Translations under genes and position numbers: made by a program
In this document: positions 2,228 to 24,392 of the stretch, in pieces
Layout of the letters: each line of letters begins with the position of its first letter
Position numbering within the stretch: the stretch's first letter is position 1
Origin: a virus
Direction: 5' to 3' (one strand)
Virus record (IMG/VR): IMGVR_UViG_3300045146_000214
Location: 1 to 64,000 of that record
DNA: 64,000 nt
Notes under the pieces: generated by a model
What the model saw: only the letters and a program-made list of their open reading frames with translations
What the model was told of the DNA's origin: nothing
The model's database searches: none

Positions 2228-3208
2228 TTAAACACTAACATTTTCAGTTGGCTTTTCCTCTCCTAACTCACGCGATGATAACGTTGGTATATCTGTATAC
2301 ACATGAATTAATGCTCTTAACTTGTCAGAAGATATAGTGGTGTCCTTGTTGGTCATGCCTTTAATAAACCAAAACTCAACAAGTTCTTTTGAAATTGCAT
2401 AATAACGAACTCTTCCATTATAAAGTAAATCTTTTGTATCCAATAAAATATAACCATCAATGTCATTTAGTTTTTCTGTGTAAAATCCGACCAAATTAAA
2501 TGCTCTACCTTTTCCTCGCTGATTAGCTGGATTAAAATAAATTCCACCTTGCTTAACCGACATCATTCTTACTTCAAAATTCTTATCGTTTATCTTAATA
2601 TCATAGTGCGCATTTTCTTCTGTTGCACGTTGCCAACCATTTGATTGGCATAACTTAATCTCCAGCAAAAGACCTAAAAATCTTCCATCTGTAAAAATCT
2701 TCTTTAAATCCTCGTCTAGATTAAGCCCAAATCCACGAACAACAACATCGAAGTTTATGGTAAATTCTCCGTAGCCATCACTTAAACCAACAGATTGTCT
2801 AAATCTCTTTTCTTGCTGTAAACCCGACCATACTTTCCAGATGTTTTTTATACTTGGCCGTTGATAAACATTTTGTTGCTTAATAACGGCATTAATATCA
2901 GGGTTCATTTTACATTTTTTAAATAGAAGTTTAAGTTCTTCAGCATCTATATTTGGAGAAACTTTTTTGGCATATTCTGCTGCTTTCTCTTCCGACTCGT
3001 CTGTAGCAAGTAACTTACCAACAATCTTTTCAAGTTTAAACTCACGTATTCTTTTAACAATTTCATCTAAAGAGCTTTTTGATCCTGTTTTTAGCACCTT
3101 ACCCATCGCAATCAAAACTTCTTTTTCATCATTAGTTAAAGTAACTCTTGGAACCGTCGCCATCTTTTTAAAACCTATCTCTTCTTTAAATAATTCTTTT
3201 ATCTTCAT
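2228..3208 (-). CDS. Hypothetical phage protein, possible nuclease-like fold
   Basis: A 326-aa soluble protein starting MKIKELFKEEIGFKK, the same type of start as the gene at 602. The first ~110 residues are helical and charged. The C-terminal half contains HYDIKINDKNFEVRMMSVKQ, then GIYFNPANQRGKGRAFN, then a strand-rich segment ending IDGYILLD. D...E-x-R spacing followed by a conserved Gly/Arg patch is loosely like a PD-(D/E)XK nuclease core. I recall a similar E-V-R...G-R-x-F pattern in uncharacterised T4-like phage proteins. It sits directly upstream of a methylase-like gene, so a modification/cleavage pair is conceivable, but nothing proves it. Confidence 0.6.
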   Translation of the reverse strand: MKIKELFKEEIGFKKMATVPRVTLTNDEKEVLIAMGKVLKTGSKSSLDEIVKRIREFKLEKIVGKLLATDESEEKAAEYAKKVSPNIDAEELKLLFKKCKMNPDINAVIKQQNVYQRPSIKNIWKVWSGLQQEKRFRQSVGLSDGYGEFTINFDVVVRGFGLNLDEDLKKIFTDGRFLGLLLEIKLCQSNGWQRATEENAHYDIKINDKNFEVRMMSVKQGGIYFNPANQRGKGRAFNLVGFYTEKLNDIDGYILLDTKDLLYNGRVRYYAISKELVEFWFIKGMTNKDTTISSDKLRALIHVYTDIPTLSSRELGEEKPTENVSV

Positions 3209-3282: not shown

Positions 3283-3972
3283 TCATATAGGCTCATATGT
3301 TACCATAAATATGTCTGGTTTGCACGGATACCTTTCACCCTTTACGCCGGTGATGATGAAATCTCCTGGGCATACAATATGGCCACCCTCTAATGTGTCT
3401 ATCCAACCATGCTCATGAAATGTTTTACCACATTGTGAACACGCATCTTTTCCAGAGACATCCGGTCTGCGGTAATAGCGAACAACACCACCCTCCCACT
3501 CTTTTTCTTTAGCTTCTTGTCCAGCCCATGTGCGTAGTTCATCATTTTCATAGTCAGTCCTATCTTTTTTGAAATCATCAGGATGGTCGCCATTTTTGAA
3601 CCACTGCGTTGCCTCTACTATAACAGGTTTTTTACGATATTGCATATTTTCTCCTTGTATATTATTAACATCAAAACCACCTTTTCTATAGGCATCAATT
3701 TTTTTGTTTAATTCATCAAGCCAATTACAATGTTCTGCTGAAACATCATTTTCTGCTCTTAATGCTCCTAACATCATAAAAACTTTTGCAAATACCCACA
3801 CGCCTATAAGAGATAATAGTGCTAGTGCCCAAATTTTTATACTAATGTTGAACTCATATAACTGCTTCTGTAGTTCACGCGAACTAATGTAAATAATCAT
3901 TAGTGCAGAAAACCAACCCCAGCCGTAATTGAATACAGCTTTTTGCCGAGCTATAAATTTTAATATTTTCAT
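3283..3972 (-). CDS. Two-TM anchor fused to a KYRKKPV-type phage domain
   Basis: A 229-aa protein. Residues ~18-69 hold two hydrophobic segments (GWFSALMIIYIS; IKIWALALLSLIGVWVFAKV), then a short linker with LDELNKKID. From residue 110 a different domain starts MQYRKKPVIVEATQW and ends PGDFIITGVKGERYPCKPDI, a widespread small phage domain of unknown function; here it has a CSQCGKTFHEH insert that could bind zinc. Directly before MQYRKK lies AAGGAG (3651-3656), a textbook ribosome site, so this domain was, and may still be, a separate gene starting at 3645. The TM part is a near copy of the N-terminus of the methyltransferase at 7635-8669. I start at ATG 3972 (MKILKF) because that start is conserved in both copies; longer starts read into copied nrdJ sequence. 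Confidence 0.7.
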   Translation of the reverse strand: MKILKFIARQKAVFNYGWGWFSALMIIYISSRELQKQLYEFNISIKIWALALLSLIGVWVFAKVFMMLGALRAENDVSAEHCNWLDELNKKIDAYRKGGFDVNNIQGENMQYRKKPVIVEATQWFKNGDHPDDFKKDRTDYENDELRTWAGQEAKEKEWEGGVVRYYRRPDVSGKDACSQCGKTFHEHGWIDTLEGGHIVCPGDFIITGVKGERYPCKPDIFMVTYEPI

Positions 3973-3978
3973 TATCCA
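3693..3978. repeat. Direct repeat copy A: membrane-anchor cassette
   Basis: 286 bp aligned without gaps to 8390-8675 at constant offset 4697, well above 90% identity by eye. It covers the TM-anchor codons from the MKILKF start to LNKKID, plus the last bases before the ATG. Both copies point the same way, so recombination between them would delete the ATP-grasp, DUF362, glycosyltransferase and methyltransferase genes. Confidence 0.9.
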
Positions 3979-4076
3979 CATTTCGAAAATCCGCATTGAG
4001 TGCAGACAGGACAACCATCTACGAATTTCATATCGCCTTCACATTGTGGGCATTTTCTTGAACACGCAGTCCCATC
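3972..4076 (-). pseudogene. Copied 3' end of nrdJ (zinc-ribbon tail fragment)
   Basis: About 105 bp that match the nrdJ 3' end at 9574-9678 with two visible mismatches, constant offset 5602. The reading frame is intact (DGTACSRKCPQC ... GFSKCG, stop), but no start codon opens it at full length and a stop lies shortly upstream. It therefore looks like a remnant, not a gene. The stop overlaps the ATG of the TM gene (TAATG), probably the ancestral nrdJ-TM junction. An internal ATG could yield a 20-residue CxxC peptide; one substitution relative to nrdJ creates AAGG just before it, perhaps by chance. Together with 4077-4207 this makes a stretch without a full gene; I see nothing else in it except an AT-rich leader with a 16-codon frame. 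Confidence 0.85.
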
Positions 4077-4207
4077 ATAAATGTAATGTTTGTTGGCTGC
4101 AAATCTTATTTAATTCATTCATCATAGTAGTAATATATCAATTTTACTGTATTTAAATCTTGGTAATATATATTAGCTTTAATAAAAACATAACAGTCTT
4201 TAATGGA

Positions 4208-5230
4208 TCATGTTTCATCCTTACTTTTGATATAATCATCAACACTATTAACTATTTCTCTCTCTAATAATGGTTGTTCTACAGTTTTAACCCAATGATG
4301 GTTATCGTGTGAAAAAAAACATTTTGACCGCTGTAGGCATATTGGCCCAAAATATGTAAATTGAAACTCTAATGCATAATATTGTTTACCATCAAATGCA
4401 ACATCTAAAGATAAGAATGGCACATCAAGTTTTTCAAATATGTTTTTAGCGAACCACAATAAATTATCAACATTTTCTTCTGGCCAGCTAAAAACACCAC
4501 TACCGCTTGCTCTAAAATCATTCTCTCTATTGTCTCGCTTCATTATATAATACTTGTTGCCAAAAACCAATATCTTCCAATCGTTCATCAAATTTGGTAT
4601 AAACTTTTGAATTATAAATTTTTTTCTGTATCTCGAAACTGGTTTATAACCACTATAAAAAAACGGGGCAATTAAATCCTTTATACCATTAATACCACTA
4701 TAACTTGCCTTGCTTATTTGTTTAATTATTTTTTCTGTTTGTTTAATGTCGTCTGACTTAAACACAAAGCGACTGCCAGCACCAGATGCAGCCTTAATAA
4801 CTATAGGCTCTTTAATTTTATTATTTTCTCTATATTCTTCAATTGTGCCATATACACCGGTTTCAATGTTTAACAACTCATCAATATCCAAATGTTTTCT
4901 AAGCATCTCCATACACGATTTATTATGATGTGCTCTAAAATATTTAAACTCAGGCAGTAAAATTGCGCCTGATTCTTTTAGCATAAGTAACACATCCTCT
5001 ATGTAATCTTTATAAAACAATCCTTCATCTTCTGATGATGGGTATAAAACATATTTTTTGAACAAATTTTTATCGCAATAATCAATTGTATTATATGATG
5101 ATATAACGATCTTATAGCCACGATTTTCAAACAAATTCTTAATTAATGATATATCAACACCAGCCTTATTAGTGGTTGATGAAAAGAATCTTTTATTATA
5201 ATCCACCAAAATAACTATATCTTTACTCAT
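4208..5230 (-). CDS. ATP-grasp family ligase-like protein
   Basis: A 340-aa protein. The N-terminal ~110 residues look like a Rossmann-type pre-grasp domain (MSKDIVILVDYN). An ATP-grasp core follows: IVIKAASGAGSRFVF (lysine and Gly-rich loop), FIIQKFIPNLMNDWKILVFG, and the metal-site strand FLSLDVAFDGKQYYALEFQF. Known ATP-grasp enzymes activate a carboxylate with ATP and join it to an amine or thiol. In polysaccharide loci they can add amino acids to sugars. I choose ATG 5230: it overlaps the DUF362 stop as ATGAGTAA, matching the overlap of the preceding gene pair. Last gene of the four-gene operon. The substrate cannot be read from the sequence. Confidence 0.7.
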   Translation of the reverse strand: MSKDIVILVDYNKRFFSSTTNKAGVDISLIKNLFENRGYKIVISSYNTIDYCDKNLFKKYVLYPSSEDEGLFYKDYIEDVLLMLKESGAILLPEFKYFRAHHNKSCMEMLRKHLDIDELLNIETGVYGTIEEYRENNKIKEPIVIKAASGAGSRFVFKSDDIKQTEKIIKQISKASYSGINGIKDLIAPFFYSGYKPVSRYRKKFIIQKFIPNLMNDWKILVFGNKYYIMKRDNRENDFRASGSGVFSWPEENVDNLLWFAKNIFEKLDVPFLSLDVAFDGKQYYALEFQFTYFGPICLQRSKCFFSHDNHHWVKTVEQPLLEREIVNSVDDYIKSKDET

Positions 5231-6542
5231 ATTCAATTTTTCCAATCCAACCAAATGGTGGTTTAAAATATTTACCGAATAAAGTCATTACATCTTTATA
5301 ATCATATTCTTTATTATTATGACAAACCACCATATCCTGTCCATCTAAATCAAATAAATGTTTTGCGTTTAATAGTAGCGGTATTTTTGTCCAGTCATAA
5401 CGCATTAATGCTGCATGAGCAATATCTGCAAAACATGATGATGAAGAAAAAGTTATTGCCCCAAGATTTGTTGGCCTGTTGGACAGTGGCCCGTCGCCAT
5501 CACCAGCAATAATTGCATCAGTTAGTGTATATATTGTCCTTTGTCGTTCTTTTTGAATGTGCCCATCAGATAAGCCACATAATAATATTTTGTTTAAATC
5601 AATCACCATTCTCCAAACTGTATCGTTCCCGCACCATGCTCCTTCTATAGTTGTGTCTTTATTGAATAAATATTTATATGCCCTTAATAGCGCAATTGAT
5701 GTTTTATTTAAAACACTATACTTATACGTTCCGATGTTACGATTTGCAATATCCATAATCAATTCTGCACAATATTTCAATTTGCTTGATTCGGCATAAC
5801 AATCACCACCCTTTGACATATCTCCTAAGCGATGATGCGGCAAGTAGCTTTTATCACCATTAATACCAACAATGTTTTTTAATGCTCCAGTGATTCCAGA
5901 TTTGCAATGAGTTTTTAATTTTGGCATGTTAATTATTACATCTGCATCAAAAATATCTTTCCAAATTAAATACTCATGTTTGCCTAGTTTTTGCCTAATG
6001 TTCAATTCGCTACTATCATAATTAGTTATTCTAAAATTATTTAATGTGGATATTGGCTCTAACATACTATCACATCCAAGATCAAAAAGACAATATTGAT
6101 TTTTACTTATTATTTTTTTAGAATAAGCGTTGTCCCAAACAGATAATCTTAAATCACAAACGTCTATGTTGCTCGATAAACTTCGCAATTCATTTAAAAA
6201 ATTTTCAGTTACAATGTTATTAAATTCACAATTTTGTATAGGCGCATCTGCTATAATTATTTTTTGCGGAGCACATTTTAAGATTTCCTTAACAACTGTT
6301 ATTATTAAATTTTTATTTGTTATTATACAATCAACTGTATAACCGTTATTGTTTTTGTGGCAAACAAAATTTGGTTTTATAACAACAACATCGCCATTTT
6401 TGATAATTGCATTAAATGCCCCTCGGTGGTTATCGTAGAGATAACCAGCAGAATATATAGCTTGCAACATTAAGTTTGTTAATAAACTTCCGTCATTGTA
6501 AACACACCTGTTGGTTGTCGCCATTCCAACTTTGTTATTCAT
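5223..6542 (-). CDS. DUF362 domain protein
   Basis: A 439-aa protein with the DUF362 hallmarks: VVIKPNFVCH near residue 55, then DADVIINMPKLKTH and SGITGALKNIVGING around residues 200-225 (the N-x-P-K-x-K-T-H ... T-G-A-x-K-N signature). DUF362 proteins are uncharacterised. In bacteria some carry ferredoxin-type clusters, but I see no CxxCxxC here, and some sit in polysaccharide and lipid-modification loci. The start overlaps the stop of the glycosyltransferase (ATGAATAA), so the two are translationally coupled. Rare in phages to my knowledge, and probably acquired together with its neighbours from a bacterial cell-surface locus. Confidence 0.75.
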   Translation of the reverse strand: MNNKVGMATTNRCVYNDGSLLTNLMLQAIYSAGYLYDNHRGAFNAIIKNGDVVVIKPNFVCHKNNNGYTVDCIITNKNLIITVVKEILKCAPQKIIIADAPIQNCEFNNIVTENFLNELRSLSSNIDVCDLRLSVWDNAYSKKIISKNQYCLFDLGCDSMLEPISTLNNFRITNYDSSELNIRQKLGKHEYLIWKDIFDADVIINMPKLKTHCKSGITGALKNIVGINGDKSYLPHHRLGDMSKGGDCYAESSKLKYCAELIMDIANRNIGTYKYSVLNKTSIALLRAYKYLFNKDTTIEGAWCGNDTVWRMVIDLNKILLCGLSDGHIQKERQRTIYTLTDAIIAGDGDGPLSNRPTNLGAITFSSSSCFADIAHAALMRYDWTKIPLLLNAKHLFDLDGQDMVVCHNNKEYDYKDVMTLFGKYFKPPFGWIGKIEYE

Positions 6543-7638
6543 TGAATAATACCTTTTTGTACTGATTTACTATAATGTCTTTTGAGAACTTTTTATTAAT
6601 ATCATCAAAAGCAATTCTGGCCATATCTTTATATAAGTTCTTATTATTGATTGTGTCCTCTATTAAGCCAGCTAATGAAACATAATCGCCAACGGCGAAT
6701 AAACGACCATTAACCCCATCGTTAATAATTTCTCTTGGGCCATAATCACAATCTGAACTGATAACTGGCACCCCACATGCCATTGCCTCTATAACAACGT
6801 TTGGGAATGCTTCTGTTTTTGAGCTTAATATAAACAAATCTGATTTCTTGAAATAAGAAAATGGCGTTTTTACTTGACCAACAAAATCAACAATATTATC
6901 TAGTCGCAAGTCATGTGTTAATTTTTCTAAGTGGTGCCTAAGATCTCCATCACCAAGTAAGATCAATTTTAGGTTATAAGTTTTCATCTTTAAAGCATAC
7001 ATTGCCTTTAATAAAGTACAATGATCTTTATATTTGCTGAAATTAGCACACGATACAATAACAAAATTGTTTTCGTTAAACCATCTATGCTCAACATTAT
7101 CTTCAGAAAGCAACCTTATCTTACTTGTATTAATTAAATTGTTAATTACTGTTATTTTTTTGGTTGGAACATAAAAATATTTTATTAGTTCTTTAGCGGC
7201 ACCATTAGACTGGCAAATAACACCATTGCACATTTGTAAACAAATTGGCAAAAGAATTTTATGCAATATCTTATTAACACCACTTAGTAACTTATTGTGG
7301 CAAACACATTCTCTAGCATATAATTTTATATTTCTTATTCCAATTAATGACAAAACGGTTTGAAATGTAACGCTTGACATGACAGACAATATTGCGTCTG
7401 GTTTTGTCGTTTTAACAGCACTTCTTATGCCCCTACAAACTCTTAATATATCAAATGAATTTGTACGTTTTAAATCAATAACGGTTATTTTTTTATCAAG
7501 TTCAAAATATTGTTTTTCTGTAGTAAAAACTACAACAGTAATCTTAACATCGTCAATAAGCTCGGATGATAACCTTTCAACAAAACGTTCTGCGCCACCA
7601 CATTGTAGTGTGTTTATCACGATCATCAAATGTTTCAT
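6535..7638 (-). CDS. GT4-family glycosyltransferase
   Basis: A 367-aa protein of full GT-B length. N-terminus MKHLMIVINTLQCGGAERFV is the GG-A-E-R acceptor-domain loop typical of O-antigen and capsule enzymes. The C-terminal donor domain has FVIVSCANFSKYKDH, LILLGDGDL, and the E-x7-E segment EAFPNVVIEAMACGVPVI, followed by GPREIINDGVNGRLF. Such enzymes move an activated sugar onto a lipid-linked or protein acceptor with retention of configuration. It starts in a 4-nt ATGA overlap with the methyltransferase stop. It may glycosylate the host surface (superinfection exclusion) or virion components; DNA glucosylation cannot be excluded, but the sequence looks like the cell-surface type. Confidence 0.85.
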   Translation of the reverse strand: MKHLMIVINTLQCGGAERFVERLSSELIDDVKITVVVFTTEKQYFELDKKITVIDLKRTNSFDILRVCRGIRSAVKTTKPDAILSVMSSVTFQTVLSLIGIRNIKLYARECVCHNKLLSGVNKILHKILLPICLQMCNGVICQSNGAAKELIKYFYVPTKKITVINNLINTSKIRLLSEDNVEHRWFNENNFVIVSCANFSKYKDHCTLLKAMYALKMKTYNLKLILLGDGDLRHHLEKLTHDLRLDNIVDFVGQVKTPFSYFKKSDLFILSSKTEAFPNVVIEAMACGVPVISSDCDYGPREIINDGVNGRLFAVGDYVSLAGLIEDTINNKNLYKDMARIAFDDINKKFSKDIIVNQYKKVLFNE

Positions 7639-8669
7639 ACCTCCCCTTTTTTACCCAAAAATATTAAATGTGAACGTTCTTTTTTAAGAATAAAATCACC
7701 AATGCGATAGGATATATTTTTTATAACATCATTAGAATAATATAGTAAATTTGTCTGGTCGCACCAAATTGAACTAAATCCATATTTCTTCAATCGTTTG
7801 CTCAACAAATCTTTATTAAACGACTGTAGGTGCTGCATTTTATGGAATATAGAGTTACATTCTGGACATATAATATTACTATCCGATAATTTTTCATTAT
7901 TCGGGACAGTTATAATAATAACTCCATTATTTTTTAATATTCTATTAATTTCATTAAGACATATATCTATTTTATCATTATCCATATGTTCAATGACTTC
8001 GATTAAAAATACCGCATCAAAAGTGTTGCTTGGATATGATAGTTCCCCGTCAGTAATCAATCTAGCATCTATAAAATTTTTATGTTGTTGATATTTTTGT
8101 AATACAAATTCCACTGATGTATTTGAATAATCACAAGCATACACCTTATTGTTATTCGACTTTAATAAATAATAGCATAGTGCACCATTCCCGCATCCAT
8201 AATCTAATATATTCCCACATACTGTAATTTTTTTATTGATAAAATTAATTATGGCATCTCCAACTTGTTCGGTGAAATATCCGCAGCTATGCATTGCCAT
8301 ATAGTTCCAAAAATTATTTATTTTTTCGTCACTCCATGTGACGCTGGATTGCAAAAATGAGTCTTTTGTATTGTTATCAATTTTATGACCATCAATTTTT
8401 TTGTTTAATTCATCAAGCCAATTACAATGTTCTGCCGAAACATCATTTTCTGCTCTTAATGCTCCTAACATCATAAATAATTTTGCGAATGCCCATACTC
8501 CTATAAGTGCCATCAATGCCAACACCCAAATTTTTATACTAATATTGAACTCATATAACTGCTTCTGTAGTTCACGCGAACTAATGTAAATAATCATTAG
8601 GGCAGAAAACCATCCCCAGCCGTAACTGAATACAGCTTTTTGCCGAGCTATAAATTTTAATATTTTCAT
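7635..8669 (-). CDS. Membrane-anchored class I SAM methyltransferase (fusion)
   Basis: A 344-aa protein. Residues 1-93 are the duplicated two-TM anchor; residues ~110-344 are a class I methyltransferase with ILDYGCGNGALCYY (motif I), VYACDYSNTSV (motif II), FDAVFLIEVIEHM (motif IV) and VIIITVPNN. After motif V come CPECNSIFHKMQHLQSF and KKYGF, a Cys/His element typical of methyltransferases in bacterial O-antigen and capsule loci. The anchor would place the enzyme at the cytoplasmic face of the membrane, where glycans are assembled. The start at MKILKF (8669) is conserved with the other anchor copy; a longer frame reads back into the Dam gene. First gene of the coupled operon with the glycosyltransferase, DUF362 and ATP-grasp genes. 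Confidence 0.8.
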   Translation of the reverse strand: MKILKFIARQKAVFSYGWGWFSALMIIYISSRELQKQLYEFNISIKIWVLALMALIGVWAFAKLFMMLGALRAENDVSAEHCNWLDELNKKIDGHKIDNNTKDSFLQSSVTWSDEKINNFWNYMAMHSCGYFTEQVGDAIINFINKKITVCGNILDYGCGNGALCYYLLKSNNNKVYACDYSNTSVEFVLQKYQQHKNFIDARLITDGELSYPSNTFDAVFLIEVIEHMDNDKIDICLNEINRILKNNGVIIITVPNNEKLSDSNIICPECNSIFHKMQHLQSFNKDLLSKRLKKYGFSSIWCDQTNLLYYSNDVIKNISYRIGDFILKKERSHLIFLGKKGEV

Positions 8670-8675
8670 TATCCA
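8390..8675. repeat. Direct repeat copy B: membrane-anchor cassette
   Basis: Partner of 3693-3978. Similarity ends abruptly at codon LNKKID on one side, where the methyltransferase domain begins, and at TGGATAATG on the other, where the Dam gene replaces the nrdJ tail present at copy A. The sharp edges mark recombination joints. Confidence 0.9.
8655..8675. repeat. 21-bp repeat flanking the Dam gene, left copy
   Basis: On the minus strand this is TGGATAATGAAAATATTAAA plus one A. It occurs again at 9560-9580 with one mismatch. The two copies bracket the Dam gene exactly, and removing the segment between them would recreate the nrdJ/TM junction seen at 3972. Confidence 0.75.
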
Positions 8676-8679
8676 TAAT

Positions 8680-9540
8680 TTAAAAGTTAAAAACAAGTGC
8701 CTCAACCACTGAGGTTCTGTTTCGAGTTTCTCCACCTACAAAATAAAAGTGGTCTTTTGTGACCATATTGAACTTACTCCAAAATTTCTTAATAAATGGA
8801 TTAATTCGATAAACGTCATGATGCCATGTTGAAAGAATAAATCGTGCTGGTGTTGATAAAAGCAAATTGAACAACATTTGCTCGTCTTTTTCTGACCAAC
8901 CACCATAATAATTAACACACCTTCCAATATATGGTGGGTCGCAATAAATAATATCGTTTTTTGTCGCCTGTAAAATAGATTGTTTAAAATCACCTACTAA
9001 GAAACTCCATTTTGGGTTAATAACGCAGGCGACATTGTTGACCTGATTAACTATCTTTGTAATATATGCTGGTGAAAAGCGATCTGGCTTCTTACAGAAA
9101 GGGACATTCCACTTTCCGTTACGGTTAAATCGCATTATTCCGTTAAACCCAGCGCGTGACAGAAATAGAAAATCTAACGGGTCATTTGATTGATTAAAAC
9201 GATCTCTGACTACTCGAAAATGCGCATAACCATTATCATGAGAGTTTTTAAGCAATGAACCTTCTCGCTCAAGATAATCGCGTACACTCCTTGACGTAAT
9301 TTTTAAATCTTTGATTTCGTTATAGAACTTAATAACATGTGGGTTAATATCACATAGTAACGCTTCTTGAAAGCCAGAGTTAAAAGCAACAACACCTGTA
9401 CCAAGAAATGGCTCAATCCAACGACCACGCACTGAAGGGGTTATAGATTTAATCCATGGCACCAGTTTTGTTTTGATGCCTTGACCCTTAATCGGCGGCG
9501 TAATTACACGTATTGTTTCGTTATTGTTTTCACAAGACAT
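8680..9540 (-). CDS. dam: D12-class N6-adenine DNA methyltransferase (Dam-like)
   Basis: A 286-aa protein with family motifs in the D12 order: PPIKGQGIKTKLV (motif X, residues 15-27), EPFLGTGVVAF (motif I, 43-53), LLCDINPHV (61-69), and DPPYIG (motif IV, 201-206). D12 enzymes methylate adenine N6, often in GATC, and can protect phage DNA from restriction. Target not determinable here. It sits between nrdJ and the TM-methyltransferase gene and is bracketed by 21-bp repeats, which suggests a later insertion. The weak ribosome site AAGG lies 5' of the start, inside a 14-codon frame (9530-9574, MKILKTLRPKTDVL) that seems to be the severed start of the original TM gene. Confidence 0.88.
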   Translation of the reverse strand: MSCENNNETIRVITPPIKGQGIKTKLVPWIKSITPSVRGRWIEPFLGTGVVAFNSGFQEALLCDINPHVIKFYNEIKDLKITSRSVRDYLEREGSLLKNSHDNGYAHFRVVRDRFNQSNDPLDFLFLSRAGFNGIMRFNRNGKWNVPFCKKPDRFSPAYITKIVNQVNNVACVINPKWSFLVGDFKQSILQATKNDIIYCDPPYIGRCVNYYGGWSEKDEQMLFNLLLSTPARFILSTWHHDVYRINPFIKKFWSKFNMVTKDHFYFVGGETRNRTSVVEALVFNF

Positions 9541-9559
9541 CGGTTTTTGGCCTTAGAGT

Positions 9560-9580
9560 TTTTAAGATTTTCATTATCCA
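9560..9580. repeat. 21-bp repeat flanking the Dam gene, right copy
   Basis: Second copy of the 8655-8675 repeat (one mismatch). It spans the nrdJ stop codon and an ATG that overlaps it (TAATG), the same arrangement as at 3970-3974. Confidence 0.75.
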
Positions 9581-11832
9581 CATTTCGAAAATCCGCATTG
9601 AGTGCAGACCGGACAACCATCTACGAATTTCATATCGCTTTCACATTGTGGGCATTTTCTTGAACACGCAGTCCCATCTTCAATATAACGCTTCAACACA
9701 CGCATAATGCCTTTATGAAAGCTATGTAAATCCTTGTTCGAGTCTTTCTCTAGTTGCTCAACAACAAAACGTATACTGGCACCATGACGTATCGCCAGTG
9801 AGATTAAGCGTGTTTGCGATCCATACGCATCATTATTAAACTGTGACACAATATCCTTGATGACTATTTCGTTATCCTGACCGCGATTAATGATCAAGTC
9901 ATATTTTGTTGTGTGCATCAGTTTGCGCTTCACAATAAATGCTTCTTTTACTGATGGTGAAACTTGTATATCTGCTGCTTTGCCTGCAAACACTTCATAA
10001 GGCCTCCCATCGTAAAGTCCAATAATAGCAATCCAATCTTCACCAGACTTGAAATGATAAATATGCGCAGGAAGATCAACTGGACGTTTAGGAGCATTCG
10101 TTGAAACAAATTTGTTTGCTGTTGTTCCGGTTGACAGAATGCTTTTCAGATTGCTATTAGGACGATATGTTGTGCATCCTTTACAACCAGATTGATACGC
10201 ATATGTGTACACGTTCTGAAACTGTTCAAAAGAAAAATCAGATGGAATGTTGATTGTTTTTGATATGCTTGAGTCAACCCATTTCTGCAATACGGCTTGA
10301 ATGTCAATATGCTGCTCTGGCGTTAAATCAGAAACAGTAGTAAAATATTTTGGCAGTGGCTTATTACCAAACTTATCTCGATACATCAATACTGCATAAT
10401 CATATACTGTTTGCTCAATTTCTTCTTCATTATTCGCTCGATACTTTCTCTTATACTCTAATGCAAATATCGGCTCAAGACCGCTGGACACATTGCCTGC
10501 ATACAACGATATTGTGCCGGTTGGAGCAATTGATGTTAAATGAGAATTGCGAATACCATTAGCTGCTATTGACTCCTTAACTGAATTCGATAACTTAGAA
10601 ACAAACTTGCTGTTTAGATACTTGTCCTTGTCATAAACAGGGAAACTACCTTTTTCAGATGCCAAAAGAGATGATGCCATATACGCTGTTTCAGTAATGG
10701 TTTTCATAATCTTATCGGCAACCTCCAGCGACTCTTTTGAGCCATATTTAATTCCCAGCATTGCAAGCACATCTGCCAGACCAGTAATACCAACACCCAT
10801 GCGTCGTTTATTTTTAGCTTCAGTTTCTTGCTGCTTTAATGGAAAATTGGTGATGTCAATAACGTTGTCTAAAAATCGAACAACTGTTGGCACGACTGAT
10901 TTAATTAAAGCGTAATCAATACCCGCATTGTCTGAAAATGGATTTTTGACGAACTTTGTAAGATTTAAAGAACCAAGCAGGCAATTAGAATTCGCCCCAA
11001 GGAGTTGTTCTCCACAAGGATTTGTCGTTGCTATAACTTCACAATAATTTAAATTATTCATTTCGTTAGCACGATCAATGAAAATCACGCCAGGTTCAGC
11101 ATAATCATATGTTGATTTGGTGATCCTATCCCACAAATACCGAGCATTAACAGTACGATATACCTTGCCATTAAATTTCAAATCAAAATCGCTATCATCC
11201 TTTACGGCCTTCATAAAAGCATCAGTAATCGCCACAGACAAATTAAAGTTTTTTAGTGACACATTATCTCGTTTCGCATCAATAAACAACTCAATATCTG
11301 GGTGGTCAATTCGTAATGCAGCTAACATGGCACCGCGCCTTGATCCAGCACTCATAATTGTTTTGCACATTGAGTCGAACATGTGCATAAAGCTAACTGG
11401 GCCGCTTGATTGCGCCTGGACACCAGACACATACTCACCTTGTGGACGAAGTGTGCTATAGTCCAAACCAATACCACCACCTTGTCGCTGTGTTAAAGCA
11501 GACTCAGTAAGAATTTTTAATATCCCCTCCATTGAGTCTTCGATAGTTCCCATGACATAACAATTATTCATGGTGGTCTTTTTTCTACCAGTTCCCGCAT
11601 TGGAAAGAATTCTTCCACCTGGCAAAAATTTGTAATCGCTAAGAATGTCATAAAACTTTGTAGACCATTCATCTTTATTCTTCTCATTGACAGCAATTGC
11701 ATTGGCAACTCTTTTCCATGTATCTTCGACAGTTACATCAATAGGATTGCCGTCTTTATCTTTAAGCCTGTATTTCAAATCCCAAATTTGATAGCTTAAT
11801 GTGTTCCCCGCAACAGTTTCAACATTATTCAT
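9574..11832 (-). CDS. nrdJ: Class II (B12-dependent) ribonucleotide reductase
   Basis: A 752-aa single-chain reductase that converts ribonucleotides to deoxyribonucleotides for phage DNA synthesis. Visible landmarks: FLPGGRILSNAGTG, NNCYVMG, RQGGGIGLDYS, the radical-site segment ATTNPCGEQLLG, SNCLLGSLNL, and SIAPTGTISLYAG. The C-terminus is a Cys-rich zinc ribbon and re-reduction tail (CSRKCPQC ... CPVCTQCGFSKCG). Length and motifs fit NrdJ, and no small (NrdB) subunit gene is present. It needs adenosylcobalamin, so the host must make or import B12. The start is preceded by AAAGGGC. The 86-bp upstream gap is too short for a cobalamin riboswitch. Its last ~105 bp are copied at 3972-4076. Confidence 0.93.
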   Translation of the reverse strand: MNNVETVAGNTLSYQIWDLKYRLKDKDGNPIDVTVEDTWKRVANAIAVNEKNKDEWSTKFYDILSDYKFLPGGRILSNAGTGRKKTTMNNCYVMGTIEDSMEGILKILTESALTQRQGGGIGLDYSTLRPQGEYVSGVQAQSSGPVSFMHMFDSMCKTIMSAGSRRGAMLAALRIDHPDIELFIDAKRDNVSLKNFNLSVAITDAFMKAVKDDSDFDLKFNGKVYRTVNARYLWDRITKSTYDYAEPGVIFIDRANEMNNLNYCEVIATTNPCGEQLLGANSNCLLGSLNLTKFVKNPFSDNAGIDYALIKSVVPTVVRFLDNVIDITNFPLKQQETEAKNKRRMGVGITGLADVLAMLGIKYGSKESLEVADKIMKTITETAYMASSLLASEKGSFPVYDKDKYLNSKFVSKLSNSVKESIAANGIRNSHLTSIAPTGTISLYAGNVSSGLEPIFALEYKRKYRANNEEEIEQTVYDYAVLMYRDKFGNKPLPKYFTTVSDLTPEQHIDIQAVLQKWVDSSISKTINIPSDFSFEQFQNVYTYAYQSGCKGCTTYRPNSNLKSILSTGTTANKFVSTNAPKRPVDLPAHIYHFKSGEDWIAIIGLYDGRPYEVFAGKAADIQVSPSVKEAFIVKRKLMHTTKYDLIINRGQDNEIVIKDIVSQFNNDAYGSQTRLISLAIRHGASIRFVVEQLEKDSNKDLHSFHKGIMRVLKRYIEDGTACSRKCPQCESDMKFVDGCPVCTQCGFSKCG

Positions 11833-11918: not shown

Positions 11919-12662
11919 CTACTTCTTGTAACAAAATGCACAATTATGAGCATATTCACAATACTTACAAAGGAACCCAGGCTTTGCCTCAAATATTTTC
12001 TTTTCTCGTATTTCCTTTATCTTAGAATACACACCATATGAAAAAAAGCCAGTCTCTTTCTTTGATAATACAACTGGCTTCGATAACGTGTTGTTCCGAA
12101 TGTAAAAAATTCTTGCCGATATACTATGGTTGCCAAACAGCCCATTGCTCTTCAATGCCATAAGAAGATAGCTTTGAAGCTGAAACTTAAATCGTATATC
12201 ATTTTCACTTTTAGCGCTTTTATAGTCAACAATCTCATAGTGTTCATTGTCATACGTATAAATCAAATCTGCAATACCGCGCATCATTGAAAACTCATCT
12301 AGAGTATACGTCAAATATTTTTCTTCAAAAACAGTCTTAGCATTATTCAATATATTTGTCTTGAACTCAACAATATTACCAACAACCTTTTGTATTTCCT
12401 TCATTTTATCAGCATACACATCAGCACTATATGATATACCCTTAAACGCTTCGGCGATTAGCTCATCAACGTTTGCGCCAATTTTATACTTCTCTGCAAT
12501 AGTGTGAAACGCCTTACCTTCATGTGTTTCAATATTATCCGGCTCCACACCAGTTTCGCCGTCAATGTATCTTCTTTTATAACGAAACGGACACTGTTCA
12601 AATGTTTTAAGTTTAGACGGAGAGAAATCTTCTTTTTTGACATTACCAAAAACTGTTACCAT
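11919..12662 (-). CDS. PD-(D/E)XK nuclease with Cas4/RecB-type Cys cluster
   Basis: A 247-aa protein with the RecB/AddB/Cas4 layout: SPSKLKTFEQCPFRYKRRY (first Cys, residue 24), HEGKAFHTIAEKY, MMRGIADLIY (catalytic Asp), YEIVDYKSAK (D-x-K core), FQLQSYLLMAL (Q-x-x-x-Y motif), and a C-terminal CKYCEYAHNC triple. Four such cysteines usually hold a 4Fe-4S cluster, and the family degrades DNA ends as a 5'-3' exonuclease. It overlaps the polymerase stop by 7 nt (ATGGTAA), so it is co-translated with dnaE. Probable role in end processing during recombination-dependent replication or in host DNA breakdown. Confidence 0.82.
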   Translation of the reverse strand: MVTVFGNVKKEDFSPSKLKTFEQCPFRYKRRYIDGETGVEPDNIETHEGKAFHTIAEKYKIGANVDELIAEAFKGISYSADVYADKMKEIQKVVGNIVEFKTNILNNAKTVFEEKYLTYTLDEFSMMRGIADLIYTYDNEHYEIVDYKSAKSENDIRFKFQLQSYLLMALKSNGLFGNHSISARIFYIRNNTLSKPVVLSKKETGFFSYGVYSKIKEIREKKIFEAKPGFLCKYCEYAHNCAFCYKK

Positions 12663-15600
12663 AGCGACATTTCCATTTGTAGTGTATGGCCAATTAATGC
12701 TTTATTGTCTGTATTTGTAGCACTCAATTGACCGTATTTTATATTACCTGATAATTCGTTGACTATAGATGTGTCCTTAACCGCACTGACAAATTGAACA
12801 AATCCATTGTTTTTTGAGACAACACACCGTATAATGTCACCCGCAGTAATATTGTCTTTCTCAAACTCTTCTAACTCCCATACAAAAATATTAAAAGAGC
12901 CACCATCTACTATAATCATCTTATAGGGTTTGTTCTTTTTTGTTTTCTTACTAATGATGTCTTTCACTCGAAACGCAATTTCATATTTTCCGCTTTCATT
13001 ACTGGCAACATATTGTAATGTATGATGTGCTTTGATAGCTGATACCTTGTCCAACATGTCAAAGTTAATTCCGATTAAATCCTTTTCAATGTTAAGCAAT
13101 TCATTAACAGAGAAGTTTTCGACCTTATCTTTTGTGCTTGTCATTATTTTATACGCTTGCCACATATCATTTCGACCAATATTGAATACATCACATGCAC
13201 CGCAAAATATCAAGGAAAATACACTCGCCTTATTAAACTTATTGATAATCGTAAAATCAATAAAGTTCTTGAATGTTTTGAAGTGTGATTTCTTATTGAC
13301 CAATTGCAGCAAATCTTTTGACATAATACCTTTGATGTAGCGCAGGCCATAGCGGATGTGGTATTGCTCGTCAAGAATAAATTGCTCAGAAGGATTGTTT
13401 ATATCTGGTGGCAGCACAGAAATTGGATATAACACGGTTTCCCCATTAACGTGAAATGGAAGTTTTTTGTTATTAATATTATTGATAACCTCACTAATCT
13501 TGTCAATGTTCTTGTCGCCAAGGTTGTTTAACACACTGGTGTAGAATTCAAAGCCATAGTAATATTTCAACCACATGTCAAAATCAGCAATAATGGAATA
13601 GCATACTGCATGAGCACGACAGAACGCATATTCGGAAAGACGTTCCATTTCATCCCATAATCTGTTTGCTTCGACACTGCCAATTTTCTCTGTGGCATTT
13701 GAAATGAACTTATCTTTGTATTTTTTAACTGAAACAATGTCTGATTTTTTAATAAGCAGCTTTCTTACTTTATTTGCCTCTTTTGAGGAAAAATCACCAA
13801 TTTGCATACACAACTGCATACATTGTTCTTGGAAGATGATAATACCATACGAGTCACCAAGAATTGGTTGTAACTTTTCATGAAGCGTATAACGCTCTTG
13901 TCCCGTTGCTCTACGAATGTATGTTTCCGTTGAACCATAGCGAATTGTTGCCGGTCTCAAAATACTATTTAACGCAACCAAATGTTCAAAGTTACTTGGC
14001 TTCAATCTACTCAATATCGGTTTCGCAGTGTTCGTTCCAAACTGAAAAATACAATCATACCCATTATCAGTTGTGTTGGCATAATTAAAAACATCCTTAT
14101 CGTCTATACCACAGTCTCTATAGATGTCAATATCAACAGCATTACCATTACTGTTTTTAACAATAAATGGTGGAAGAACATTTTTTCCGTTTTTAGCTTC
14201 ATAACATTTTCGAAACTTGCGTATAAGCGACAAGGAGTCGTCAATTACTTGAACGTTGGTGACGCGCAATAAATCATATTTGTAATAACCAAGGTCTGAG
14301 AGTGTGTCACCATCCCAACCGGACACAATTGTATCGTTATAATGGTAATATGGGATAAGATCACCAAGTGGTGTGTTTTTGTCGCCAATTACAACACCCG
14401 CCGGATGTTTACCGCTTGAGCGATATGTGCCATGCAGTGTATCAAGTATAGAAATATCCTCTACCAGTTCAGATATTTTCCTATACATGTTAGGGCACAC
14501 TTCTTCTAGGTGAAAAAAATCTAAATGCTCATAGTCATTTTCAATTTCCTTGGTAAGCTCATTCGCCTCCATAAAGGGAACATTATAAAACCTTAGAATG
14601 TCCTTAATGACCGATTTCCACTTGTATTCTTGTAACGTTCCAATTGGTATGCTGTTGGGATATTTTTCATAGATGTATTTTTTGACATGCTCATGCACAT
14701 TCTGAGCAAAATCCAAGTCAACATCTGGGCCAGAGCCAGACTCAATTTTTGACTCATCTAAAAATCTCTCAAACAAAAGATTGTGCTTTATCGGATCAAT
14801 TTCTGTAATGCCAAGACAATACAACACCAATGATGCTGCTGCACTACCACGGCCTGGAGCCATGCTGGTAACGCCATAGTTTTTCTTTGTCCAACTTACG
14901 AAGTCGTATAAAACGTCAATGTAACTATCAATCTTAAGTTTTTTAATGACTTCCATTTCATACGCAATTCTGTCTCTGTATTGTGCAATATCGGCAATAC
15001 CACGTATTTTTGCCCCTTTTATTACTTCTGCTACAAGGTCTTCAAAATTTGTTTCTTTTGGCCTTGGAATATTTGAGACGATATTAGGTATGAAATTCCC
15101 AACTCTCTCAACAAATATTTTCCTATTGTTCTCTATCGCTTCATCAAATACTTTATCGGTAAATAATTCAGTTTTGAGATTGTTGTTCCAATATGTTCGT
15201 AATTCATCATATGTTTTAAAGTATGTTTCTTTGCACGTCTCTTCAACATATTTGATTGACTTAGCATTCTTCTCTTGCCGTTCTTGAATATCCTGTAATG
15301 TAAGGTTCTCTCGCAGCGCATGAAGAATATAAGACGCTTGCCAATCCGACTTTTTAACAAAGTGGATGTCATTTGAAATAACACAAGGAATTGACAGCTT
15401 TTTAGAAAGCATAATCAATGCATCGTTATATTCGCACACATTATCAACATCAACAGCGGTCAATTCTAAAAAGAAGTTCTCGCCAAAGATTTTTTTATAC
15501 TTCTTCGCATAGGCAATCGCTTCTTCAATGTTGTTTTTACGATATGATTTACCGATCAGCCCACCAATACAAGCAGAAGTTATTATCAATCCATCCTTAT

Positions 15601-16018
15601 GCTGCTTAATTTTCTCGGTTGTGATGAGAGGTTTGTTATAGAAGTTATCAGCGGAAAACGCCACAATATTCATAAGATTTTTGTAGCCAGCGGCATTATA
15701 CGCTATAAGAATAAGGTGACGAACAGACTCGGAGTATAGTTTCTTCGCCAGTTCCGAGTCTTTATTATCTCGTGCCTTTAGAATATCGTTGAGGTTGTCA
15801 CAAACATATGCCTCAATACCAGCTACAGGAATGATATTGTTTTCTTTGCACTTGAAATACAAATCAGCAAATGAATTAATATTGCCGTGTTCCGTAATAC
15901 ACACATGCGAAATGTTGTTTTCTTTATGAACCCTAACAACATCTTCTACGTTACAGATGGCGTCACCAACAGACCCTTTTGAAGTATGTTGGTGAAAGTT
16001 GTAAAACAATTTGTTCAT
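12656..16018 (-). CDS. dnaE: DNA polymerase III alpha subunit (DnaE type)
   Basis: An 1120-aa replicative polymerase of the bacterial C family. An N-terminal PHP domain starts FHQHTSKGS and contains ITEHGN. The palm holds PGRGSAAASLVLYCLG and the catalytic acidic segment GPDVDLDF. QEQCMQLCMQIGDF and AFCRAHAVCYSIIADFDMWL are the finger helices that bind incoming nucleotide. A C-terminal OB-fold (IIVDGGSFNIFVWELEEF) ends the protein. No separate epsilon exonuclease or beta clamp is in the window; proofreading could come from the PHP domain. It overlaps the ClpP-like gene by 1 nt (TAATG). Family C polymerases replace the T4 family B enzyme in some large phages. Confidence 0.93.
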   Translation of the reverse strand: MNKLFYNFHQHTSKGSVGDAICNVEDVVRVHKENNISHVCITEHGNINSFADLYFKCKENNIIPVAGIEAYVCDNLNDILKARDNKDSELAKKLYSESVRHLILIAYNAAGYKNLMNIVAFSADNFYNKPLITTEKIKQHKDGLIITSACIGGLIGKSYRKNNIEEAIAYAKKYKKIFGENFFLELTAVDVDNVCEYNDALIMLSKKLSIPCVISNDIHFVKKSDWQASYILHALRENLTLQDIQERQEKNAKSIKYVEETCKETYFKTYDELRTYWNNNLKTELFTDKVFDEAIENNRKIFVERVGNFIPNIVSNIPRPKETNFEDLVAEVIKGAKIRGIADIAQYRDRIAYEMEVIKKLKIDSYIDVLYDFVSWTKKNYGVTSMAPGRGSAAASLVLYCLGITEIDPIKHNLLFERFLDESKIESGSGPDVDLDFAQNVHEHVKKYIYEKYPNSIPIGTLQEYKWKSVIKDILRFYNVPFMEANELTKEIENDYEHLDFFHLEEVCPNMYRKISELVEDISILDTLHGTYRSSGKHPAGVVIGDKNTPLGDLIPYYHYNDTIVSGWDGDTLSDLGYYKYDLLRVTNVQVIDDSLSLIRKFRKCYEAKNGKNVLPPFIVKNSNGNAVDIDIYRDCGIDDKDVFNYANTTDNGYDCIFQFGTNTAKPILSRLKPSNFEHLVALNSILRPATIRYGSTETYIRRATGQERYTLHEKLQPILGDSYGIIIFQEQCMQLCMQIGDFSSKEANKVRKLLIKKSDIVSVKKYKDKFISNATEKIGSVEANRLWDEMERLSEYAFCRAHAVCYSIIADFDMWLKYYYGFEFYTSVLNNLGDKNIDKISEVINNINNKKLPFHVNGETVLYPISVLPPDINNPSEQFILDEQYHIRYGLRYIKGIMSKDLLQLVNKKSHFKTFKNFIDFTIINKFNKASVFSLIFCGACDVFNIGRNDMWQAYKIMTSTKDKVENFSVNELLNIEKDLIGINFDMLDKVSAIKAHHTLQYVASNESGKYEIAFRVKDIISKKTKKNKPYKMIIVDGGSFNIFVWELEEFEKDNITAGDIIRCVVSKNNGFVQFVSAVKDTSIVNELSGNIKYGQLSATNTDNKALIGHTLQMEMSLW

Positions 16019-16632
16019 TATTTCTTTACCTTCTTTTCCTTTTTATCGTTGTCTTTTACCTCTTTAATTATCTTGCCGATTTCTTGCTTTCTGCGTTTTA
16101 GCCTTCGTACTACTTCTTCACTGCCAAACCAAAAGTCATGGCCATCAAACAATTTTTCCAATTCTTCGTCTGTCAAGAAAAACCTATAAATGTCTCGAAA
16201 AATATTCTTAAATAAATCATCCTTGAAATCTACGCTGGCTTTATTCTCCTGTCCCTTACCTCGTTCAGAAGAAGAATACCAATGACATAACATTTGGCTA
16301 CCATATTCAACCTTAATATTTCCGGTTGCGCTTAGTAGGATTAACGATGCTGCACTTAGAGCACTACCAGACAATACAACATTAACAGGAATTCTACAGT
16401 TCTTAATCGCGGAAATTATTTGCATAGCAGTATGAAGATAACCACCATAACTGTTAATATAAAGAATAATACCATTCTCACCACTAATTGTATTAAGCAA
16501 ATGCAGTAACTTTACATATTTATCTGGCGACTCAATCGGGGAGTTCATGTAAACGTGGTGAATTGTCTTTGTAAACGTCTGCTCAACTATGCTTATCGCT
16601 TCTTCTTGAACTTTATTATCCGTGTTGTTCAT
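16018..16632 (-). CDS. clpP: ClpP-like serine protease
   Basis: A 204-aa protein with the ClpP signature ILYINSYGG (residues 56-64; ClpP has LYINSPGG). The probable triad is Ser93 in GSALSAASL, His117 in MLCHWYSS and Asp166 in DGHDFWF, in the canonical order and spacing. The Lys-rich C-terminus (from ~178) is longer than in housekeeping ClpP. Phage ClpP homologues usually act as capsid prohead proteases, but this one lies inside the replication operon between dnaE and the helicase. It could instead remodel replication or host proteins together with a host Clp ATPase. AGAGG precedes the start. Confidence 0.8.
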   Translation of the reverse strand: MNNTDNKVQEEAISIVEQTFTKTIHHVYMNSPIESPDKYVKLLHLLNTISGENGIILYINSYGGYLHTAMQIISAIKNCRIPVNVVLSGSALSAASLILLSATGNIKVEYGSQMLCHWYSSSERGKGQENKASVDFKDDLFKNIFRDIYRFFLTDEELEKLFDGHDFWFGSEEVVRRLKRRKQEIGKIIKEVKDNDKKEKKVKK

Positions 16633-16640
16633 AAACCTCT

Positions 16641-17957
16641 TTAATTCATTGTTAATTCACGAATATGGCATCTTGCTGGATTAAACCCCATTAGTGTAAA
16701 CTGATTAGCTCTCGACTCTCCAAATCTATTAAACAAAACACTAACGCGCAATTGATTAAGTTCTTGTTCTGACTGGTTTTGAGAGATGACAATCGTTGCA
16801 TCGGCAATTCGTGTTTTATCAACCGAACCACCTAAAGACTGCTCTACCTCTTCGTCTATTTTATTACCAGAATTTTTCGTTCTCTGAAACGCTGTAATAA
16901 CACAGCAATTAAGTTGTGACGCCAATGCTTTTGCTTCACGATATGTATACGCCTCTTTAATCCAAGGGTTATTATCGTGAGCTTTTTCTATTGAGTTGAT
17001 GGTAGTGTGGTCAATATAATCAATCACAATAACTTCTGGAACAAACGAGTATTTTGCTTTCAATATATCAACATAGCATCGTATATCATTAACATTAGCA
17101 GTTCCCATTGGAAATTCTTTGATTATAAGCGAGTGTTTATCCACACCAAATTCTTTTTTAATCTGTTCAATAACTTCATTGAGTTTTTCTGGATAATTCT
17201 TTACGATATTAATGTCTTTATTGAGCACCATGGCATCAAGACGAACTTTCTGCATTAATTCAGAAAGCTCCAATGATACAAACAAAACTTTTGTATTTCT
17301 CAACATTAACTGGCCTGCAATATTAAGTAGCATCATTGACTTGCCTGACTTTTGACTGCCTGCAAATGCAATGAGCGACTTTTTAGGAAAACCACCACCA
17401 AAAACATTGTCAAAGAAATGAAAACCACTCTTGATAAATTCAATTTTTTCGTTGGCATAGCTCATTGGGTCAAGATACACCAACCCACCAGAACCAACTG
17501 CCCGTAGCGACTCGGCCTCTTGCAGTCTTTTGATAACTGTTGAAAAGTTACCAGTGTTAATATCAGAAATTGACTTGCGCAGCGCATCCGTCATTCGATT
17601 GTTAATTACAAATTTTTTGGCCTGTTCAAAAACGTATTCAGCTTCATTCTTATCCTCAATAAAACTGACAATATCCTGTTCAATTTGTAACAAACAATTA
17701 ATCGCTTTAACTTTTACATCACCAGTTTCATGTTTTTGAACGTGGTCTTTCAGCATCGTCAGCGTTGGAACTTCCGTAAGTGTTTCGTGCAAGGCCGCAA
17801 TCGCCGCAAATATTGCCTTATTTTCTTCAACATCAAAAAAGCATTTATTGATATATGGTATAAGACTTTTAAGTTGCTTATCTCCGCGCAATATTGAGCG
17901 TAGCAATATTAGCTCAAAATGCGGTTCTAAAAAAATAGTTTGTGTTTCATTTACCAT
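16641..17957 (-). CDS. dnaB: Replicative DNA helicase (DnaB/gp41-like)
   Basis: A 438-aa hexameric helicase candidate. The N-terminal ~110 residues match the DnaB N-domain (FELILLRSILRG). The RecA-like core has Walker A AGSQKSGKS (199-207), VLFVSLELS, Walker B EVIVIDYID (308-316), a Gln-sensor segment CVITAFQRT and arginine-finger region LFNRFGESR. It would unwind DNA 5'-3' ahead of the DnaE-type polymerase. No separate primase gene is visible in the window. The start overlaps the end of the upstream sigma-like gene by 11 nt. Confidence 0.9.
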   Translation of the reverse strand: MVNETQTIFLEPHFELILLRSILRGDKQLKSLIPYINKCFFDVEENKAIFAAIAALHETLTEVPTLTMLKDHVQKHETGDVKVKAINCLLQIEQDIVSFIEDKNEAEYVFEQAKKFVINNRMTDALRKSISDINTGNFSTVIKRLQEAESLRAVGSGGLVYLDPMSYANEKIEFIKSGFHFFDNVFGGGFPKKSLIAFAGSQKSGKSMMLLNIAGQLMLRNTKVLFVSLELSELMQKVRLDAMVLNKDINIVKNYPEKLNEVIEQIKKEFGVDKHSLIIKEFPMGTANVNDIRCYVDILKAKYSFVPEVIVIDYIDHTTINSIEKAHDNNPWIKEAYTYREAKALASQLNCCVITAFQRTKNSGNKIDEEVEQSLGGSVDKTRIADATIVISQNQSEQELNQLRVSVLFNRFGESRANQFTLMGFNPARCHIRELTMN

Positions 17958-18414
17958 GACTATTAAACCTCTTGATTGGTTTTATATTTGTGTTTTGATG
18001 ATAATAGCCCTTATGATTAGTTGACAAATTAGTCAAATAGTTCTTGCTGTTAATATCCGTCAAACCATGATATACATACTTTGTAAAGCTGTGACTCTTT
18101 ACAAGATCGCGTATCTTATTATACAATATCATGTAACAAAAAGCAAAACATACACGTTTTTTATTGCCATTGTAGTGCTTGAGTTTGTTAAACATATGTG
18201 TAATACATGTTATTTGTATGTCAAGCCAATCCTCATTGTTCAAGTTTTTATACCCTCGCACCGAAACATATGCTCGAATTATCTTGCTTATCTCCCAAAA
18301 CGCACAAAACAATTTTTCTTCATTTGGTTTTGACTTATCTTTTCTATAGTTTATTATCAATTCATGCAGTAATTGAGACGTTACTTGATTTTTTAAATTA
18401 TAAGGTAATACCAT
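17947..18414 (-). CDS. Putative late sigma factor, T4 gp55-like
   Basis: A 155-aa basic protein. Residues ~40-115 follow the sigma region 2 pattern seen in T4 gp55: a helix ending at YVSVRGYKN, acidic NNEDWLDIQITCITHM, then KHYNGNKKRVCFAFCYMI and YNKIRDLVKSH, which corresponds to the FAYFTQI / NAFIRRI(KKEK) core. Like gp55 it lacks an evident region 4, so it would need a sliding clamp and coactivator. The start has a very strong ribosome site (GAGGAGG). Position between the endonuclease and helicase genes resembles T4-like early clusters. If correct it would direct RNA polymerase to the rightward virion genes. Similarity is by pattern only. Confidence 0.5.
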   Translation of the reverse strand: MVLPYNLKNQVTSQLLHELIINYRKDKSKPNEEKLFCAFWEISKIIRAYVSVRGYKNLNNEDWLDIQITCITHMFNKLKHYNGNKKRVCFAFCYMILYNKIRDLVKSHSFTKYVYHGLTDINSKNYLTNLSTNHKGYYHQNTNIKPIKRFNSHGK

Positions 18415-18416
18415 TA

Positions 18417-18923: not shown

Positions 18924-18932
18924 GTTGCTTCC

Positions 18933-20187: not shown

Positions 20188-20195
20188 GTCTTTCC

Positions 20196-20465
20196 TTATT
20201 CTTCTTCTTCACGCCCTTCATCATCACCATCCATCTTCTTCAACTTCTTATAATATTTTGAATCTTCTCTCAAGTGATCTAGTGCAATACCCGCGACTAT
20301 ATCCATATCATTATTAACCGTTTCTGCATGTTCCTTTTCAACAAAAAATCCTTCTTGCATATCTTCACGCGAAAAATCTTCTTCTTCAAAGTCAACACCT
20401 AACTTATCAATAGCGTCGTCGGCTTCCTTGCACTCTTGTAAAAGCTGTTTAATAGTCATCTTCAT
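20196..20465 (-). CDS. DUF5661-like small acidic protein
   Basis: An 89-aa protein rich in Glu and Asp. The segment FFVEKEHAETVNNDMDIVAGIALDHLREDSKYYKKL (given as FFVEKEHAE ... IALDHLREDSKYY) matches the E-H ... A-x-D-H-L-x-E-x-x-x-Y-Y pattern I associate with DUF5661, common in phage and bacterial genomes and of unknown function. It starts in a 4-nt ATGA overlap with the gp46-like stop; a second ATG two codons later is equally possible. Confidence 0.7.
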   Translation of the reverse strand: MKMTIKQLLQECKEADDAIDKLGVDFEEEDFSREDMQEGFFVEKEHAETVNNDMDIVAGIALDHLREDSKYYKKLKKMDGDDEGREEEE

Positions 20466-23623: not shown

Positions 23624-23625
23624 CT

Positions 23626-24380: not shown

Positions 24381-24392
24381 GGTGCTATCTCC

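Follow-up and report, generated by a model that had tools for sequence, protein, structure and literature searches.

The region downstream of nrdJ in this phage genome raises the question of how a Dam-type DNA methyltransferase gene came to separate nrdJ from a membrane-protein gene, when copies of these two partners lie directly joined ~5 kb away, and which of the two arrangements is the older.

Organization of the locus

The window analysed here comprises bases 1-64,000 of the 81,446-base virus record IMGVR_UViG_3300045146_000214. The genes of the seam region, where nrdJ meets the membrane gene, all lie on the minus strand, and the order of transcription follows falling coordinates: nrdJ, Dam, a membrane domain with a SAM methyltransferase and a GT4 glycosyltransferase, followed by DUF362 and ATP-grasp-like genes, a copied nrdJ tail and a second membrane domain with phrog_419. 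The features are as follows.

9574-11832, minus: nrdJ, adenosylcobalamin-dependent (class II) ribonucleotide reductase, 752 aa, ending GGATAATG (TIGR02504, PF02867)
9560-9580, minus: nrdJ-proximal 21-bp repeat with one mismatch; nrdJ end and severed membrane-gene start
9530-9574, minus: severed 14-codon open reading frame, MKILKTLRPKTDVL and stop, overlapping the Dam start (coordinates counted from the sequence)
8680-9540, minus: Dam-type N6-adenine DNA methyltransferase, 286 aa, the inserted gene (TIGR00571, PF02086, PADLOC PDLC03264)
8655-8675, minus: membrane-gene-proximal 21-bp repeat; the last nrdJ codons as non-coding scrap past the Dam stop
8391-8669, minus: copy B of the membrane-gene domain, with two hydrophobic stretches in ~93 codons (identity to copy A; hydropathy)
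7635-8669, minus: open frame, copy B in frame with a SAM-dependent methyltransferase (PF08241, residues 156-254 of query 7638-8672)
6535-7638, minus: GT4 glycosyltransferase, cargo (PF00534)
5223-6542, minus: DUF362 protein, cargo (PF04015)
4208-5233, minus: ATP-grasp-like protein, cargo, a weak assignment (PF14305, E 0.025, under the Pfam cut-off)
3972-4091, minus: headless copy of the nrdJ 3' end, a zinc-ribbon-like tail (BLASTN 9560-9688 versus 3958-4086)
3958-3978, minus: 21-bp repeat sequence within the unsplit joint
3694-3972, minus: membrane-gene domain copy A (protein similarity to copy B)
3283-3972, minus: open frame, copy A in frame with a phrog_419 protein (phrog_419, residues 110-229 of query 3286-3975)

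The nrdJ product scores 592.6 bits against TIGR02504 (cut-off 399.95). The Dam gene is intact and its product scores 177.5 bits against TIGR00571 (cut-off 114.85) over residues 14-285; its best PADLOC model, PDLC03264, is that of a Type II restriction-modification methylase (366.8 bits).

The initial annotation had described a copied nrdJ tail running straight into a TM gene at 3972. The two do overlap there as TAATG; the nrdJ tail is a headless remnant, and each TM 'gene' makes up only the opening ~94 codons of a longer open frame, the two frames continuing into different genes near the point at which the copies cease to resemble each other. The phrog_419 part of the copy A frame has its own start codon with AAGGAG ahead of it (identified by eye), and the best INPHARED homologues of this frame match only from residues ~111-113; in Shewanella phage 3/49 the annotated homologous gene begins 9 bases ahead of the match. 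The fusions may therefore be either accidental read-through or real anchors.

Repeats at the edges of the Dam gene

As proposed initially, Dam is flanked by 21-bp repeats with one mismatch, TGGATAATGAAAATATTAAAA (8655-8675) and TGGATAATGAAAATCTTAAAA (9560-9580) on the minus strand, spaced 905 bp start to start. A third, unsplit copy at 3958-3978 is identical to that at 8655-8675 and sits between the copied nrdJ 3' end and the copied membrane-gene start. These three are the only matches in the 64 kb at up to three mismatches, and none of 400 random window pairs gave 21 nt at up to one mismatch (the best was 14; near-overlapping draws were skipped yet counted in the 400). Similarity past the 21 bp was equalled by 298 of 5000 random 30-mers on the stub side, and the proposal that the 14-codon stub belongs to a longer start of the membrane gene, now decayed, was dropped; at the other Dam edge it was equalled by 4202 of 5000. 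An ungapped 31-nt extension of the repeat similarity (84%) was left out of the count.

It is very improbable that the repeats arose by chance or that an assembly artefact joined unrelated stretches. Shuffling predicts 0.01 matches in the window at up to three mismatches. The record is probably metagenome-assembled and assemblers can be misled by repeats; however, the longest exact run common to the two seam copies is 56 nt, which is short for long-k assembly, and the reading frames are unbroken across the Dam joints.

The insert itself contains one recognisable intact gene, Dam, with no transposase or endonuclease gene (Pfam, NCBIfam). Its edges carry an imperfect 20-nt inverted pair (80%); four pairs of this kind, this one included, occur within 1 kb of the AT-rich sequence. 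Methyltransferase matches alone were obtained from the insert (Pfam, NCBIfam), and no homing endonuclease family was matched among the nine genes between 1668 and 11832 (Pfam).

Direction of the change

Deleting 8676-9580 in silico (one repeat plus Dam, 905 bp) restores the unsplit seam. Over 385 positions the restored joint and the unsplit copy show 24 differences, with only one (4008) among the 101 positions between 3930 and 4030, in agreement with the initial annotation that cutting between the repeats regenerates the other joint. The severed 14-codon start that it reported is likewise present, as MKILKTLRPKTDVL and a stop.

The composition of the repeat bears on the order of events. It consists of the nrdJ end (TGGATAA) followed by the membrane-gene start (ATGAAAATATTAAAA), and each flank of Dam accordingly carries a non-functional scrap of the opposite partner: the membrane-gene part 3' of nrdJ has no evident use, and neither has the nrdJ part ahead of the membrane gene. 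From base composition, the membrane-gene scrap TGAAAATMTTAAAA is expected at any one place with a probability of 1.1e-7 and the nrdJ scrap TGGATA with one of 3.6e-4. Since the repeat joins parts of both partners, and Dam has a functionless scrap on either side, the unsplit seam most likely predates the presence of Dam in it, as judged from the sequence. The initial annotation had gone further and placed duplication of the joint before Dam insertion, with loss of Dam before duplication as its alternative. Its first element, a joint that existed before Dam split it, is retained on this evidence; the second does not follow from it, since the second seam copy may have been made before Dam arrived, may have carried Dam and later lost it, or may have come from a Dam-less relative, and all of these would look the same.

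Our preferred reading, to which we assign a probability of about 0.7, is that Dam recombined into a pre-existing joint of nrdJ and the membrane gene, duplicating 21 bp, and that the unsplit copy shows the Dam-less state. A tailed-phage ancestor would have carried a small membrane-protein gene directly after nrdJ, the stop and start codons overlapping as TAATG. Dam would then have recombined into the exact boundary between the two genes, either through short identity or with a duplicating repair step, and 21 bp of the joint would have been duplicated, leaving nrdJ, Dam and the membrane gene intact and a 14-codon membrane-gene stub behind nrdJ. The second, unsplit joint (~400 bp), ~5 kb downstream past four foreign-looking genes, would represent the Dam-less state, and the role of Dam in the phage might be DNA protection or regulation. 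One point against insertion is the length of the target duplication, since simple transposition would be expected to leave fewer than 21 bp. Published phage cases with the same anatomy support the preferred reading (PMC3029335, in the portion available).

The reverse history, in which Dam was once present in both copies and was lost from that at 3972 by precise deletion between the 21-bp repeats, making the unsplit copy secondary, is unlikely. Such repeats can recombine, the deletion yields exactly the joint that is seen, and a cut that kept the membrane-gene-proximal repeat would leave zero differences inside the repeat. Gain and loss were likewise inseparable for the authors of the mycobacteriophage study, in the part of their text available (PMC3029335). 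However, composite repeats, and hence an earlier unsplit joint, are still required, and the loss adds one step; if the order nrdJ-Dam-membrane gene were ancestral and copy A had been deleted later, the repeats would need another origin.

Divergence of the two seam copies

The duplicated seam is ~400 bp long and comprises the nrdJ tail and the membrane-gene start, the copy at the nrdJ locus being split into two parts by Dam. It is the sole long dispersed duplication that BLASTN (E 1e-3) gives in the 81 kb, leaving aside local repeats near 72-77 kb, unlisted repeats within 600-1650 and a gene start shared by 472-602 and 1530-1646. The last of these, at 1530-1646 on the minus strand, is a decayed copy of the 472-602 gene start (MKIKELLESKLGSF...) with an in-frame stop (MKVYKILESKLGSFDNLDQ and stop); it is another duplicated gene start in the same 10-kb stretch as the seam and lies ahead of a WG-repeat gene (681-1583, minus), whose ~300-aa product consists mostly of five-residue W-N/D-G-type repeat units with a 15-nt period in the DNA.

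The nrdJ-tail parts are 95.3% identical over 129 nt and the membrane-domain parts 92.7% over 286 nt (BLASTN), with 93% protein identity between membrane-domain copies A and B. The nrdJ match is strong up to about 4076 and fades past it. The differences between the membrane copies are clustered: 16 of 21 fall inside 60 nt (matched by none of 20,000 random placements), and by codon 10 of 15 fall inside 20 codons (20 of 20,000). Five of the nine silent changes lie in a 16-codon patch of the 93 codons (p 0.007 for a patch chosen post hoc). Such clustering is better explained by two alleles, or by a conversion patch, than by simple drift following a single duplication.

It is thus quite possible, if somewhat short of even odds, that the two joints came from two related phages, copy A and its downstream genes having been acquired from a Dam-less relative by unequal recombination. 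The headless nrdJ tail and the enclosure of the four-gene block would be products of the same recombination, and such a history is compatible with the joint having existed before Dam. The clustering of membrane-copy differences, set beside an nrdJ tail with just two differences between 3979 and 4076 (at 4008 and 4037), is what it would produce. On the other hand, the same clustering could result from gene conversion of a patch or from relaxed constraint on the second hydrophobic stretch, and the searches for relatives returned no donor.

The four-gene block

The seam copies bracket four AT-rich genes, a feature absent from the initial annotation, encoding the methyltransferase, the glycosyltransferase, the DUF362 protein and the ATP-grasp-like protein. 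The G+C content of the block (glycosyltransferase, DUF362, ATP-grasp-like and methyltransferase parts) is 28.7-31.4%, compared with 34.4-41.8% for ten core genes at 11919-29755, 38.5% for nrdJ and 36.5% for Dam, a contrast weakened by low values outside the block (membrane domains 32.3 and 33.3%, the 2228-3208 gene 32.9%). MT835502.1, an INPHARED record with an unverified phage label, resembles a bacterial surface-polysaccharide locus: genes for GT2, GT4, a TupA-like ATP-grasp protein, DUF362 and a polysaccharide flippase are adjacent in it. The window DUF362 and GT4 proteins match it with 32% and 37% identity, respectively; the ATP-grasp-like protein gave no match there (tblastn). From this gene set and the two matches, the four-gene cargo probably derives from a surface-polysaccharide type of bacterial locus.

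A broader reading, which we regard as distinctly unlikely, is that the seam is a repeat-built cargo slot that made two separate acquisitions, the membrane domain being an interchangeable N-terminal anchor. Dam would have entered with a 21-bp duplication of the joint and the surface-glycan-like block of four genes with a ~400-bp one, and the membrane domain would be read in frame into two different proteins.

Restriction-related features

In the protein encoded by the minus-strand gene at 2228-3208, residues 165-296 match the PADLOC model PDLC03550, that of a Type II restriction enzyme (E 1.2e-15). The protein has no phage homologue by tblastn and no Pfam match, and its predicted structure was unusable (mean pLDDT 38). 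As this protein and Dam both match PADLOC models of Type II restriction-modification, the two, 5.5 kb apart, could be parts of one system. The 2228 protein also shares a short N-terminal motif with otherwise unrelated proteins (MKIKELFKE, MIYKKLFE, MKILELLE, MKVNQLIE), located at window positions 2228, 30738 and 49020 and record position 79945; such starts are reminiscent of the head-targeting leader peptides of T4-like phages.

GATC occurs 96 times against 220.6 expected. Avoidance of GATC was considered as a sign of late Dam arrival, but GTAC is under-represented to a greater degree and CTAG to a similar one, and the argument was dropped. On the same grounds the shortage is no proof that Dam methylates GATC. 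Over the whole record the palindromic tetramers GTAC, GATC, CTAG and GGCC stand at 0.29-0.53 of expectation, which suggests past restriction pressure.

Search for relatives

No relative with an unsplit nrdJ-membrane joint or with the order nrdJ-Dam-membrane gene was found at the sensitivities used, and the direction of change is therefore read from one genome. The membrane gene had no relatives in INPHARED (tblastn), viral_contigs or genome_contigs at these sensitivities, and the C-terminal quarter of nrdJ had no match in viral_contigs. The nrdJ alignment set was the best 80 of 583 related candidates (best identity 56%), and homologues reached at most 58% identity over the matched part among the matches listed. 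Neither Dam nor the membrane domain occurred at any of 94 nrdJ loci (E 1e-3, among the matches listed), all distant nrdJ homologues and not close relatives; these were drawn from 106 loci by excluding the window's own and keeping nrdJ matches of >150 aa, and 67 of them have at least 2.1 kb of sequence past the nrdJ match. Five annotated nrdJ neighbourhoods list no Dam gene. A degenerate pattern of the nrdJ end plus TRATG found one contig (L100), with a different gene downstream, and at four Dam-homologue loci (L012, L013, L014 and L104) the stretch examined contained no nrdJ and no membrane domain. For a dnaE segment relatives reached only 35-39%, and the DUF362 protein had no match in genome_contigs.

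Comparison with known systems

Short sequences at gene boundaries have reportedly been proposed, by Arbiol et al. in 2010 and Comeau et al. in 2014, to drive module exchange in the mobile regulatory cassettes (PeSLs) of T4-type phages. The Dam edges share the position of such sequences at gene boundaries; they differ in that no PeSL-like promoter with a stem-loop was demonstrated there, a scan giving promoter-like sites at chance level (40 versus 37.7). Insertions of free-standing homing endonucleases (mobE) in phage nrd genes have been reviewed (PMC3653736, as far as its text was available). These too lie in or between ribonucleotide reductase genes, but the insert is an endonuclease, whereas here it is a methylase.

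The closest published case is that of mycobacteriophage LRRHood, in which 29-bp repeats, present once in relatives, bound a 1.35-kb insertion of four genes, 43-46 (PMC3029335, here and below from the part available). Both cases have added genes and short direct repeats that are single where the insert is absent, and the LRRHood repeat also lies at a gene end. The repeats here are 21 bp with one mismatch and bound a single gene, rather than 29 bp around four; the empty site of LRRHood is found in relatives such as Cali, whereas here the uninserted site, with its single repeat, is represented only by a further copy within the genome itself and not at a relative's locus. In Island3, the end of gene 68 duplicates that of its neighbour, and Brujita has the 60-bp sequence in single copy. 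That pair likewise points to gain or loss through duplicated gene ends of ~50-60 bp, for which the authors gave no direction; the candidate routes that they named are short boundary sequences and illegitimate recombination (PMC3029335). The sequence shared by Island3 and Brujita is the 3' end of one gene, whereas here it is a joint of two genes, hence the argument for polarity.

The Dam seam is the same kind of event as that in LRRHood, with the addition that the uninserted state is kept as a second copy within the genome. A single phage genome thus holds before-like and after-like states of a gene gain, a readable case in which the composite repeat yields a direction that the LRRHood and Island3 cases, as published in the text available, did not (PMC3029335). 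Should relatives bear this out, cargo genes could be sought at the seam next to nrdJ.
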